DNA of 40,468 nt from Desulfohalobiaceae bacterium (GTDB taxonomy: Bacteria; Desulfobacterota; Desulfovibrionia; Desulfovibrionales; Desulfothermaceae), in NCBI GenBank assembly GCA_027013815.1, contig JALWFY010000100.1, positions 1 through 40,468 of the forward strand. Reading direction: 5' to 3'. Shown piece after piece: positions 4,918 to 22,910 of the stretch; within the stretch, counting starts at the first letter, position 1, and every line of letters starts with the position of its first letter. The position numbers were made by a program, and so were the translations under genes. The notes beneath the pieces are model-generated. The model was given only the letters and a program-made list of their open reading frames with translations, did no database searches and was not told the DNA's origin.

Positions 4918-6726
4918 ATGTCTTGGTTCAGCGTGGATTGGAGTATGATTCCTTTAGAGGACTTTAGGTATATAGAGATATCAAAGGGTGCATTTAGTGC
5001 AAAGTATGGTAATACACTTGGTGGATATATAAACCTTGTATCACCTGACACAGTAACAAATGGATTATATTTTAGTTCTGGTTATAAACGGTATGATACT
5101 TATTTTTTAACAGGGGGAAGTTCTTTTAGATATTCTAATTTTGGGATTAAATTAACTTCAGGATATTATTCAACAAATGGATATTTAAGAAATAGTGAAG
5201 CGCAACGCTCGGATATTTCTGGAGATCTATATTATTTTTTTCAAGACAATGGACGTATAAAGTTCAGTCTTGCATACAGTAAAGGTGATTTCCACATGCC
5301 TGTGGAAAATAATAAGGATAAGATAGGATTTGATTCCCATTATCCCGAGAGCGCAGGTACTTATCTAGCAGGACCAGGCATTAGATTTAAAAATGGTGAT
5401 ACAAATGGGGATAATTCATTTTATAGAAAGAAGAGGACGCAAATTGATGTTTCACTTAAAAAAAAGATTTTGGGTTTTGATAGTGACTTAGCCTTTTATT
5501 GGGACAATGAGGATAGAAAAGATATTATCTATTCTTATCTTGAGGATAAAAAAATATTAGAAAGAAAGGCCACACCTGACAGGACTTATGGATGGCATGC
5601 AATTTTTGGATATTTTTTAAATAACCATCATATAACATTTGGTGGAGACGGAAATTATCAAGGCTATGGTGGAACAAAGAACACTTTTGTGTCATCAAAA
5701 TATTTTTACTGGCCCCCAATAGATGGGAGCGATGAATGGGACGCCTCTAGGTACCATGGTATTTACATAGATGACACATATAAATTGAATAAAAATCTTT
5801 CTGTGTACTTAGGGCTTAGATATGAGAACTATTATGCAGATCAGAGTGTTGACCAGGTTGTTGGGTATAATTCCTTTGGTAAACCTATTGGTTGGGAAGA
5901 GGTTGACAAGACATTTGATAAATCTGTGTTTTTGCCTAAGTTTGGTTTGGACTTAATATTAAATAAATATATATCTCTTTACACCCACATTGCAAAGGCT
6001 GCAAGATTTCCAGATAATCCTGCATTTTATTGGTATTATGCTGGATATCGTCCAGAAATTGATCCCAATTCAAATATAAAGAGAAAGGACTTAACTTATG
6101 AAGATGCAACAGAATCTGAACTGGGATTAAGGACAAATTTGTTTGACAGGGCATATATTGATTTTTGCCTTTTTAATTATGTTGTTGATAATTATATTAG
6201 GTGGATATTTGGATATGCCCCAAGTAGAGTTGTATACAATATAGATAAAGTGAGAATTGATGGCCTAGAGATGAATACTAATATTAACTTAATGAATTAT
6301 CTATATTTATTTGGAAATTTTACATGGCAAGAAAGCAAAAAGAGTGGAGATGTATTAGATGGTTCTAATAAACTTAGTAGTGGATTATCAGAACTTCCCA
6401 AATGGAAGTTTAATACTGGTATAAAATATGAGAGACCAGATGGAATGGTTGTAAAGACAACACTCCATTGGGTTGATAAAAGATACGTACCTTATTTAAA
6501 CGGCGCTGCGCCGGATGGTACTCCATTGGGAAGACCAATAGTCTTAAAAAAGCTCAGTTCCTATTCAGTGGTAAATGCATTGGTTAGATATCCTATATTA
6601 ACTCATAGAGTAAAGGCTTTTTTGACTGCAGGTGTAGATAATTTATTTAATAAATATTATGAAGAAGAATTAGATTTTCCAGCTCCCAAAAGAACGTTTT
6701 ATATGGCATTTGAAATGAAATTTTAA
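4918..6726 (+). pseudogene. TonB-dependent outer-membrane receptor lacking signal peptide, TonB box and half the plug
   Basis: The open frame begins inside the plug domain: IPLEDFRYIEISKGAFSAKYGN matches the conserved plug segment that normally lies 80-120 residues into the precursor. After this comes a complete-looking beta barrel with alternating strands and a C-terminal aromatic residue (FEMKF). No signal peptide, TonB box or N-terminal plug half exists in any frame upstream: an in-frame stop lies at 4885, and the permease ends 67 nt before the ATG. The only GGAG abuts the ATG directly, so initiation would be poor. Without an export signal the protein cannot reach the outer membrane, so this is probably a remnant left by a deletion. 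Intact relatives import metal chelates, cobalamin or other ligands. Confidence 0.65.
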
Positions 6727-13654: not shown

Positions 13655-13908
13655 TTAACAAACTAAAGTTCCGAAAACTGTAGGTTAATAGGTAAAGACG
13701 GCAAAAGGCACATGAGGCAAAAGGCTAAAGGGCTCTAATATGATTTTGGATGTTGAATTTTGGATTTTGGATTAATTTTTAAAAGGGATTTTGTTCCTTA
13801 TTTTAATTCAAAATTCAAAATTTATAATTCAAAATTTAACAAATAGCCCTTAGCCATTATGAACAATGGGTTAGAATTGAAAAAAACGTAAATTTTTTTC
13901 ACGTTTTT
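13655..13908. repeat. Intergenic repeat, copy A (upstream of hisD)
   Basis: This copy shares about 220 bases with 16152-16371, beginning TTAACAAACTAAAGTTCCG and ending in an ACGTAAA/TTTCACGT hairpin with a T run. Inside it, GGCTAAAGGGCT (13723-13734) and AGCCCTTAGCC (13845-13855) are inverted repeats. They enclose A/T-rich TTTTGGATT-type repeats that can pair with AATTCAAAA-type repeats, giving one long imperfect hairpin. Copy A carries about 35 extra bases of the AATTCAAAA type compared with copy B. No coding capacity is seen; it looks like a non-autonomous intergenic element or a terminator-bearing repeat. Confidence 0.85.
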
Positions 13909-16163: not shown

Positions 16164-16371
16164 AGTTCCGAAATCTACAGGTTAATATAAAAGGCGGCAA
16201 AGGGCGAAAGGCTAAAGGGCTCCAATATGATTTTGGATGTTGAATTTTGGATTTTGGATTAATTTTTAAAAGGGACTTTAATTCAAAATTTAACAAATAG
16301 CCCTTAGCCATTAGCCTAATGTAAACAATGAGTTAGGATTCAGAAAAGACGTAAATTTTTTTTACGTTTTT
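16152..16371. repeat. Intergenic repeat, copy B (end of purC)
   Basis: This is the second copy of the element at 13655-13908, in the same orientation, starting inside the last codons of purC. It has the same inverted repeats (GGCTAAAGGGCT 16210-16221, AGCCCTTAGCC 16299-16309) and ends with an ACGTAAA/TTTACGT hairpin followed by Ts (to 16371), which would make a terminator for hisD-purC. Confidence 0.85.
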
Positions 16372-16410
16372 GAAATAAAAAGCTTATTTTAATGTAAAAG
16401 GAAATTTATC

Positions 16411-16557
16411 ATGGATATTTTTTATGGGTTAATAGTTCTTATAGTTATTTGGATCGTGTTGGGTATAGTTTTACCTAAAATGGGTATTGGAGGCTGAGGC
16501 GTAAAAAATAGTTGCAGTATGCAGCATAGAAAACCAAAAGGAAATAGGAGAAATTAG
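16411..16557 (+). CDS. Small membrane protein; candidate selenoprotein (UGA at 16495-16497)
   Basis: AAAAGGAAA (16397-16405) precedes the ATG. Codons 1-28 encode one membrane helix (about residues 5-21) then LPKMGIGG, and the frame meets TGA at 16495. If the TGA ends translation, this is a 28-residue protein (16411-16497). If it is read as selenocysteine, 19 more codons follow (G-V-K-N-S-C..., strongly basic, with a Cys six residues on) to TAG at 16555. The reasons to consider readthrough are the hairpin at 16511-16525, the Gly-Gly-Sec-Gly context and the basic tail that fits a cytoplasmic end. The extended frame ends 13 nt before the glycosyltransferase gene, as in an operon. No known family is recognised. 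Confidence 0.45.
16498..16526 (+). promoter_or_regulatory. Hairpin after in-frame UGA, bSECIS-like
   Basis: GTTGCA (16511-16516) pairs with TGCAGC (16520-16525), with one G-T pair, around the loop GTA. The loop begins 19 nt after the UGA and has G first. Published rules for bacterial SECIS elements, as I remember them, ask for a 3-14 nt loop, G in the first two positions and 16-37 nt from UGA to loop; all are met. A 6-bp stem is short and can occur by chance. Confidence 0.35.
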
Positions 16558-16570
16558 GACTTATATTTTT

Positions 16571-17713
16571 ATGGGAGATGGACATATAGGGGTGAAGGAA
16601 AAGACAAAAATAGCTTTTTTCCTGGCTACATCAGGACACAGTGGCGTGGATAGAGCCATGAAGAACTTAATCCCCTCCATAGCATCTAGGGGATATGAAG
16701 TGGATCTCATTAAAGTTAAGAATCATGGTCCATATCTAGATTCTATACCAGATGGGGTTAATATAATAAAATTACCCACCTCTCATGTCTATTCAAGCTT
16801 TCCATATTTATTGAGATACCTTAAAAAATATCATCCTTATGTATTTTTAACAGATAAGGATAGGGTAAATAGATGTGCTATTTGTGCAAAATTAATCACA
16901 AGGGCCCCTACAAGATTGGTTGTTAGTATTGGGACAACGGTTTCAATAAATTTGAAGAGTAGGGGTATAGTGGAGAGATGGGTTCAGAGAAAATCCATAG
17001 GTAACTTGTATAAATATGCTGATAAAGTAGTGGTCACCTCACAGGGAGTTGCAAGGGATATGGTAGATTACACAGGACTTTCTGAAGAACTAATAGAAGT
17101 TTTGCCCTCCCCAGTAATTGACGCTTCCCTTTTAACAAAAAGGCTACCTCTTCCTCCTCACCCTTGGTTCAAACCAGGCTCTCCTCCTGTGATACTAGGG
17201 GTTGGAGAGTTAGGAATGAGAAAGGACTTTTCTACATTGATTAAGGCATTTAAAATAGTAACTGAACATATGGATACAAGGCTTGTTATATTGGGTAAGG
17301 GTAAACAAAGGGATTTACTCATGTCTTTGGTCAATGACCTTAGCCTCAACCATAAGGTAGATTTTCCTGGTTTTGTGAAAGACCCATATCCTTATATGGC
17401 GCATTCAAAGTTGTTTGCCTTTAGTTCTTTGTGGGAAGGGCTTGGGTTTGTTTTAATAGAGGCATTAGCAGTAGGAACCCCAGTGGTATCTACAGACTGT
17501 CCAAGTGGCCCTGCAGAAATTTTAGAAAATGGAAAATATGGAAAACTCGTGCCTGTAAAAGACCCAGAAAAAATGGCTGAGGCAATTATTGAAACATTAA
17601 AAAATCCAAAGGACCCAGAATTTTTAAAACAGGCAGCAAGGCCATATACAATTGAGCAAAGTACAGATGCATATCTAACCTCTTTTGGACTACCTCTATA
17701 TTGGAATGGTTAA
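16571..17713 (+). CDS. Glycosyltransferase, GT4 type (first of a pair)
   Basis: The 380-residue protein has two Rossmann-like halves. The N-terminal acceptor half contains TSGHSGVDRAMKNL. The C-terminal GT4 half has VGELGMRKDFSTLIKAF, LVILGKGKQRDLL, the EGLGFVLIEALAVGTPVVSTD segment with the E-x7-E pair that binds the nucleotide sugar, and SGPAEIL. No membrane helix or signal is seen, so it is a cytoplasmic or membrane-associated retaining transferase that adds a sugar to LPS core or O-chain. It stands first in a row of three glycosyltransferases and a ligase and is very similar to the next gene in its C-terminal half. Confidence 0.9.
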   Translation: MGDGHIGVKEKTKIAFFLATSGHSGVDRAMKNLIPSIASRGYEVDLIKVKNHGPYLDSIPDGVNIIKLPTSHVYSSFPYLLRYLKKYHPYVFLTDKDRVNRCAICAKLITRAPTRLVVSIGTTVSINLKSRGIVERWVQRKSIGNLYKYADKVVVTSQGVARDMVDYTGLSEELIEVLPSPVIDASLLTKRLPLPPHPWFKPGSPPVILGVGELGMRKDFSTLIKAFKIVTEHMDTRLVILGKGKQRDLLMSLVNDLSLNHKVDFPGFVKDPYPYMAHSKLFAFSSLWEGLGFVLIEALAVGTPVVSTDCPSGPAEILENGKYGKLVPVKDPEKMAEAIIETLKNPKDPEFLKQAARPYTIEQSTDAYLTSFGLPLYWNG

Positions 17714-21229: not shown

Positions 21230-21340
21230 AAAATAGACACTAGTATGGATTAGTAAACTCTTAGGGACAAATTAGAAAAACTTCCAAAACTTTTACTTGT
21301 CAAATAATTGGATTTATACTAAAAGAAAGATTCGTTCTTT

Positions 21341-21431
21341 GGAGAGGTGTCCGAGATGGCCGAAGGAGCACGATTGGAAATCGTGTGTACCGGAAATACC
21401 GGTACCGAGGGTTCGAATCCCTCCCTCTCCG
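21341..21431 (+). tRNA. tRNA-Ser (anticodon GGA)
   Basis: The acceptor stem GGAGAGG pairs with CCTCTCC at the 3' end, discriminator G at 21431, and CCA is not encoded. The anticodon stem CACGA/TCGTG holds the loop TTGGAAA with anticodon GGA. A long variable arm (TACCGG AAATA CCGGTA) marks a class II tRNA, and GGGTTCGAATCCC is the T arm. It reads UCC and UCU. Confidence 0.97.
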
Positions 21432-21434
21432 TTT

Positions 21435-21629: not shown

Positions 21630-22910
21630 ATGTTAGATCTAAAATTTATAGAACAAAATCCTGATATAATAAAAAGGGCCCTTGAAAAGAGGAAAGTAGA
21701 TGTTGATATAGATGGATTTTTAGAGATGTGTAATAAACGAAAGTCCTTGATACAAAGGGTTGAGTCATTAAGGGCTAGGCTCAATAAGGAGTCCAAAGAA
21801 CTTGGAAGGCTAAAGGCCAAAGGGGTAGATATACAGGATAAGGCAAGGGAATTGTCTCAATTGTCAGATGAGATAAAGGAGATTGAGAAACAGAGAAAGG
21901 ACATAGAGGCTACAATATTTGACATTAGGTCTCAGATTCCAAATATCCCTGCTCCAGATGTGCCAGAAGGGGACAGTGATGAGGACAATGTAGAAATCAA
22001 AAAGTGGGGTAAAAGGCCTGAATTTTCATTTGAACCAAGGCCCCATTGGGATGTTGGTGCAAGTTTAGGTGGTCTTGACTTTGAGAGGGCATCAAAGATA
22101 GCAGGTGCAAGATTTGCACTTTATTTTGATTGGGCTGCAAGGCTTGAGAGGGCGCTTATTAATTTTATGTTAGATGTTCAGACCAGGGAAAATGGATATT
22201 TAGAGGTCTTGCCACCATTTATAGTAAATTATGACTCTATGTTTGGTACTGGCCAGCTCCCAAAATTTGAAGAAGATCTTTTTAAATTACAGGGATGGGA
22301 CTACTATCTTATACCTACTGCAGAAGTACCTGTAACCAATATCCACAGGGGAGAAGTAATTGAAGAGAAGCAACTTCCCCTTGCCTATACTGCATATACC
22401 CCTTGTTTTAGATCTGAAGCAGGTTCATATGGAAAAGATACCAGGGGATTAATTAGGCAGCACCAATTTAATAAGGTGGAGCTTGTGAGGTTTGTGCATC
22501 CAGATACTTCTTATAAACAACTTGAGATACTCCTCACCCATGCAGAATCTATACTCCAAAGATTAGGACTCCATTATAGGGTAGTTGTCCTGTGTACACG
22601 AGACCTTGGATTTTCTGCTGCCAAGACATATGATATAGAGGTGTGGCTCCCTGGACAAAATACATATAGGGAGATATCTTCTTGTTCTAATTTTGAAGAC
22701 TTCCAGGCAAGGAGGGCCAATATAAAATTTCAGCCTGAAGGTTCAAAGAAAAAAGAGTTTGTGCACACATTAAATGGTTCTGGCCTGGCAGTGGGGAGGA
22801 CATTGGTTGCAATTTTAGAGAACTATCAACAAGAAGATGGTTCCCTGATCATACCTGAGGCACTACAACCTTATATGGGTGGAATTGAGGTCATCGAACC
22901 AGCTAAGTGA
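21630..22910 (+). CDS. serS: Seryl-tRNA synthetase
   Basis: SerS charges tRNA-Ser with serine. The 426-residue protein begins with [18 protein letters not shown] and the long antiparallel coiled-coil arm (about 30-100) that grips the tRNA-Ser long variable arm. Class II motifs follow: motif 2 around [27 protein letters not shown] and motif 3 [27 protein letters not shown] and [15 protein letters not shown] are also typical. AGGAGAG precedes the ATG. It lies just downstream of tRNA-Ser(GGA). It overlaps or abuts gmhB. Confidence 0.98.

Follow-up and report, generated by a model that had tools for sequence, protein, structure and literature searches.

Does a very short gene that reaches a UGA codon shortly after a predicted membrane helix end there, or is the UGA read as selenocysteine (Sec), and what might a Sec residue do at the membrane surface? 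The question is raised by positions 16411-16557 on the forward strand of a 40,468-nt stretch of DNA from a Desulfohalobiaceae bacterium (contig JALWFY010000100.1), here called the window, where an initial annotation had proposed a possible very small selenoprotein. Direct reading of the sequence bears out the frame, coordinates and codon counts given there. The gene begins with ATG at 16411 and continues through 28 codons, TGA, 19 further codons and TAG (16555-16557), and the next ORF begins at 16571, 13 nt past the TAG. The product would be MDIFYGLIVLIVIWIVLGIVLPKMGIGG-U-GVKNSCSMQHRKPKGNRRN, with 48 residues and Sec at position 29. The claimed ribosome binding site is present as AAGGAA, and the Cys described six residues past the UGA is Cys 35. 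The features are as follows.

16411-16557, + strand: predicted selenoprotein gene, 48 residues, Sec at 29, terminal TAG included (from TGA-column homologues)
16398-16403, + strand: likely ribosome binding site AAGGAA, approximately 8 nt 5' of the ATG (sequence read directly)
16414-16479, + strand: predicted membrane helix, codons 2-23 (AlphaFold2; family hydropathy and charge)
16495-16497, + strand: TGA codon 29, predicted selenocysteine (TGA in 111 of 112 order members, Cys in 1)
16498-16554, + strand: basic tail after the Sec codon, 19 codons (coding-type substitution in relatives)
16511-16525, + strand: SECIS-like hairpin with a 6-bp stem and the loop GTA, which begins 19 nt past the UGA (family compensatory changes)
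16513-16515, + strand: TGC codon for Cys 35, which is predicted to pair with Sec 29 (a nearby Cys in each of 185 proteins)

The reading favored here is that the ORF is a selenoprotein gene whose product serves as a membrane redox couple, and we place the probability of this statement as a whole at approximately 0.75. Its two parts are not equally firm. On comparative sequence evidence the ORF is almost certainly a genuine selenoprotein gene. The redox couple, which is drawn from chemistry, anatomy and the example of SELENOS, stands slightly better than an even chance. The gene belongs to a large, apparently undescribed family of single-pass membrane selenoproteins of 45-65 residues.

If the UGA were instead an ordinary stop, the gene would encode a 28-residue membrane peptide and the remainder would be non-coding. 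Taken singly, the tail and hairpin of the window copy are unexceptional: 19 open codons have a probability of approximately 0.22 at 35% G+C, and this copy could be a chance outcome. The phylogenetic evidence, in contrast, is far beyond chance. The window protein, queried with Cys written for U, has relatives in approximately 25 genomes of the order, and almost all of these relatives contain a single in-frame TGA. A 22-row profile, also built with Cys for U so that TGA was not favored, matches 153 of the 297 order genomes sampled, in 42 of 55 genera (E <= 0.01; a few of the weakest matches may be chance). A match in G119 proved to be chance. Reading of 112 order members showed TGA at one shared column in 111; the exception, G213, has Cys there, in the form KLGIKN-C-GSLPGSCKW, and TAA and TAG are absent from this column in all 112. 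Thus the comparison proposed in the initial annotation, TGA or Cys at position 29 in related genomes, came out strongly for TGA, and the homologues ending at position 28 that it had envisaged as counter-evidence were not found among these members. Seven partial matches gave the impression of stopping there and proved to be a real subfamily with the form SP-U-Q...GGCGG. One genome (G014) carries two tandem copies of the family (C1:158921-159061 and 159107-159247).

The family extends well beyond the order. A 59-row profile (E <= 1e-5) matches 141 of 395 genomes of the phylum, in 97 of 246 genera. A scan of named genome records with the window protein as query gave no matches; with the conserved LNRW form it gave 156 relatives, and of the 80 loci kept, 77 have TGA and 3 have Cys. 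These loci are mostly labelled Deltaproteobacteria, Desulfuromonadales and Syntrophobacterales, and they also come from Planctomycetota, Spirochaetota, KSB1 and a Kuenenia-labelled MAG. Members were found in 31 of 343 genomes of Planctomycetota (30 were read, 25 with TGA and 5 with Cys) and in 26 of 296 genomes of Spirochaetota. Cultured carriers include Desulfuromusa kysingii DSM 7343, Malonomonas rubra DSM 5091 and Desulfacinum hydrothermale DSM 13146. A plasmid search gave no match. Members most often have the form W-x-x-LNRW(I/V)LP(R/K)-x-G-V-x-T-U-M-S-x-S-C. The GGUG context emphasized in the initial annotation is present in the window; it is only a local form, and this other motif is the most widespread one found.

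The sequence past the TGA evolves in the manner of coding DNA. Across 26 close pairs, which are not independent of one another, codon positions 1, 2 and 3 carry 88, 59 and 149 of the substitutions past the TGA; beyond the hairpin the same non-independent pairs give 48, 34 and 70, and the third-position excess was assessed by chi-square. Judged from this substitution pattern, the tail after the TGA appears to be translated. In order members 14-36 codons follow the Sec codon, and the tail frame and the tail Cys are kept across homologues, which removes the concern, voiced with the initial proposal, that the tail might not be conserved.

The hairpin that follows the UGA is likewise a property of the family. 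The window copy has a loop beginning with G and a minimum free energy (MFE) of -6.6 kcal/mol in a 48-nt fold. The initial annotation had described it as obeying bacterial SECIS rules; the G-first loop, the spacing and the other criteria stand, but its energy misses the cut-off of -7.5 kcal/mol in a published bacterial SECIS model (PMC13188914). The rules applied here (a stem of 4 bp or more, a G at loop position 1 or 2, and a spacing of 13-37 nt) are close to the published ones and carry no energy cut-off. They are passed in the MFE fold by 104 of 111 order members, versus 36% of controls in which the protein was kept and synonymous codons were randomized. The window hairpin is no lower in MFE than its own synonymous controls (z 0.03), and the structural evidence is therefore that of the family and not of this copy. 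In 64 distinct sequences, 81.5% of cells pair, a value that leans to the common hairpin because the register of the alignment, anchored by hand at the Cys codon, was picked from it. Sliding the register never brings the pairing above 43%, and none of 500 column shuffles attains either the pairing or the number of compensatory changes that was observed. The pair adjoining the Cys codon alternates C-G, T-A and G-C across the family. A Gln, His or Arg often lies three residues after the Cys, and pairing with the Cys codon largely accounts for it. Of the 77 named TGA loci, 61 pass the same rules, and several of the remainder have a hairpin that is seen by eye and missed in the MFE fold.

The window genome (2.59 Mb, 95% complete) contains all four of the genes selA, selB, selC and selD that the initial annotation had singled out for checking, so that the absence of selB or selC, which would have told against a selenoprotein, does not arise. 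The matches are strong for SelA (E 2e-157), SelB (392 bits), tRNA-Sec (84 bits) and SelD (327 bits). The SelD gene (L287, C111:87474-88391) has an in-frame TGA, and SelD is therefore probably itself a selenoprotein. The exchange of Sec and Cys in the family follows the Sec machinery. Among the Planctomycetota carriers tested, SelA is present in 0 of 7 genomes with the Cys form versus 22 of 25 with the TGA form (Fisher P 3.6e-5, a count that ignores phylogeny). A further TGA-form genome (L231) also lacks SelA, which brings the TGA-form genomes of this phylum with no SelA match to four. Across the order SelA is present in 146 of 153 family-bearing genomes versus 101 of 144 genomes lacking the family (P 2.4e-9, phylogeny again ignored), and seven family-bearing genomes have no SelA match. 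The TGA-form genomes with no SelA match are mostly draft assemblies, which may be incomplete. The converse case is G213, which has the Cys form yet also has SelA. The TGA column, the conserved hairpin, the coding-type substitution of the tail and the Cys that replaces UGA in genomes lacking SelA lead us to reject an ordinary stop, which we regard as having a negligible chance of being correct.

A UGA that is decoded could nonetheless serve as a selenium sensor, in which case the gene would be a leader whose decoding controls the downstream gene and whose product has no function of its own. As a leader might be, the gene is very small and is often followed closely by another gene on the same strand. 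The downstream genes, however, differ by lineage or lie on the opposite strand, and it is the helix, the residues flanking Sec and the Cys that are conserved in the protein. The replacement of Sec by Cys in genomes lacking SelA also argues against a leader, since a sensor based on UGA would not need Cys. A leader peptide is thus disfavored and is very improbable, if marginally less so than an ordinary stop.

The conserved features of the protein suggest how the selenoprotein may work. AlphaFold2, run on the single sequence, predicts a helix at residues 2-23 (pLDDT of approximately 90) followed by disorder (pLDDT 55-60). Hydropathy across the family agrees with the prediction, as does the single membrane helix of the initial annotation. 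The mean net charge across the family is -0.6 before the helix and +2.1 after it, in the tail. With a negative N-terminal side and a positive C-terminal side, the positive-inside rule makes an N-out/C-in topology likely. Gly is found near Sec in many members, not in all. Every one of the 185 proteins checked has a Cys close to Sec. It lies at +5 to +8 from U in most of them, usually 5-7 residues downstream, and in the rest at +2, +3, +17 to +19, or upstream of U. In G160 (L094) the +6 Cys is lost and a Cys directly precedes U (GGCUGP). A Cys that is obligatory yet shifts its place argues for a chemical pair of Sec and Cys and not for a by-product of the SECIS. A Cys near Sec, as in the possible Sec/Cys pair of the initial annotation, is a constant of the proteins checked, and the chemistry proposed for the pair is somewhat more probable than even.

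In the mechanism that we propose, UGA 29 would be read as Sec under the direction of the hairpin 19 nt downstream, with decoding by the SelA/SelB/tRNA-Sec/SelD set of the genome. The N-terminal helix would hold the protein in the inner membrane, most probably with the N-terminus outside. Sec would then lie approximately six residues past the helix, together with its partner Cys, in a disordered, usually basic and probably cytosolic tail. There it may attack an oxidant or a disulfide at the membrane surface. The nearby Cys would resolve Sec through a selenenylsulfide, and the pair would be reset by a thiol reductant of the cell.

The genomic neighborhood was read for partners that might point to such a reductant or substrate, and no conserved operon partner of this kind was found. 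We take the order in the window to be hisD-purC-Sec gene-glycosyltransferases; hisD-purC-fabI-Sec gene recurs in related families. Between purC and the Sec gene, an inverted repeat rich in A+T (ACGTAAA...TTTACGT followed by Ts, at approximately 16349-16373) is seen by eye and could be a terminator or attenuator. As partner enzymes, hisD, purC, fabI and a DegT-type aminotransferase were rejected, being of housekeeping type and confined to related families. Neighbors elsewhere include UspA, a cupin and a HesB-like selenoprotein, and a CpxA-type histidine kinase adjoins the Sec gene in Desulfuromusa relatives. The CpxA-like kinase, UspA/TRAP and the cupin were rejected as partners because each is confined to one clade. 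At one spirochaete locus (L260), the gene upstream of the Sec gene (5519-5821) is HesB-like with an in-frame TGA (GMG-U-GGPRLGL) and sits after an ArsR-type regulator.

Other neighbors bear on a different role for the same selenoprotein, in which Sec and Cys would bind metal or carry sulfane sulfur as a persulfide at the membrane. In 24 of 192 loci (for example L083, L211, L224, L285 and L286) the Sec gene adjoins an FmdB zinc-ribbon gene on the same strand, which precedes it in some lineages and follows it in others. FmdB is the only neighbor that recurs in several arrangements, and it is a possible functional partner. In the Kuenenia-labelled MAG, the Sec gene lies between genes for a rhodanese and a metallo-beta-lactamase-fold protein on one side and a TauE-type exporter on the other, and in Thermogutta the Cys form adjoins a YgaP-like membrane domain. 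Contexts of this sulfur type are nevertheless few, and the other neighbors are unrelated. Each chain offers only two soft ligands, and the distance between Sec and Cys varies widely. Metal binding and sulfane-sulfur handling are serious rivals and still rather unlikely; the redox couple is the best-supported role.

Support for a redox couple by analogy comes from the eukaryotic SELENOK and SELENOS. They share with the family a single N-terminal membrane helix, predicted in the family, and a disordered tail that carries Sec and is expected in the cytosol, and some family members share GGUG around Sec with them. The SELENOK and SELENOS tails are rich in Gly and Pro and positively charged; the family tail is positive on average, with Gly near Sec in many members. 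In SELENOS a selenenylsulfide between Sec and Cys in the disordered cytosolic tail is documented (PMC10650576). The differences are also clear. Sec is second or third from the C-terminus in SELENOK and SELENOS, whereas here it is 14-36 codons from the end. The SECIS of the family, unlike theirs, is of the bacterial type and lies inside the coding region, and the family proteins are shorter. The Pfam models of SELENOK and SELENOS do not match the family. The initial annotation was therefore right to call the likeness superficial: the layout is shared, and kinship is not shown. We suggest tentatively, at odds well short of even, that the family is a bacterial functional counterpart of SELENOK/S, whether convergent or ancestral, that amounts to a minimal membrane-anchored Sec/Cys redox device with no enzyme fold, and that it is among the most widespread selenoproteins of Desulfobacterota and has been overlooked.

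No model in Pfam, NCBIfam or PHROGs matches the family consistently; in NCBIfam this holds for sets of 22, 59 and 16 aligned members, and no relative was found in the PDB. Single matches to PF12669, PsbT, TMEM208 and ATP synthase 8 seem to reflect helix similarity of a generic kind. The FeoB-associated Cys-rich membrane proteins (PF12669) resemble the family in their short length and in having Cys residues after a single membrane helix. Only 1 of 22 members matched that model, weakly (E 0.0041), and 0 of 16 in a second set, and no FeoB gene was recognized among the Sec-gene neighbors read. To our knowledge PF12669 has no Sec form. FmdB proteins are also small and contain Cys residues, and rare Sec forms of the FmdB-type zinc-ribbon family have been reported (PMC2398784); they are zinc ribbons (PF09723) that lack a membrane helix, and no sequence similarity to the family was seen. 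Other small bacterial Sec proteins of unknown or redox-like role, for example NF041197 (dual CXXC motif), NF041239 (CC/Se motif) and the hypothetical proteins DG (NF049953) and DF (NF049942) (PMC13188914), differ in that their models do not consistently match family members. None of the 119 prokaryotic selenoprotein families in a 2026 table fits by name, domain or motif, the terms in which the table was compared (PMC13188914). Earlier genome-wide searches reported other families (PMC2398784, PMC1914089, PMC1794560). Within the open-access literature, and with small hypothetical families such as GOS_A outside the sequence comparison, this is very probably a new selenoprotein family; the remark in the initial annotation that no bacterial family like it was known holds against Pfam, NCBIfam, PHROGs and the 2026 table.

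Gene finders would tend to miss the family because its genes are very short and UGA is normally read as a stop. Selenoprotein finders would tend to pass it over as well, as it is tiny, with a mid-gene UGA and rare Cys homologues; the authors of deep-Sep name rare Cys homologues as a weakness of their own method (PMC12013277). Since the family is present in approximately one third of the sampled genomes of the phylum and also in Planctomycetota and Spirochaetota, published selenoproteome counts for these groups are probably too low. With one helix and one Sec/Cys pair, it offers a minimal system in which to ask why cells pay for Sec at the membrane surface, and it opens a way to test in bacteria what SELENOK/S-like layouts do.

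Two further features of the window are recorded. A tRNA-Ser (GGA) gene is located at 21340-21432. An 18-nt motif, GGCGAAAGGCTAAAGGGC, occurs on the + strand at 16203-16220, 13716-13733 and 21808-21825 with at most 3 mismatches, in intergenic-looking DNA. Three copies compare with 0.01 expected by chance, and the motif is perhaps part of a dispersed repeat.
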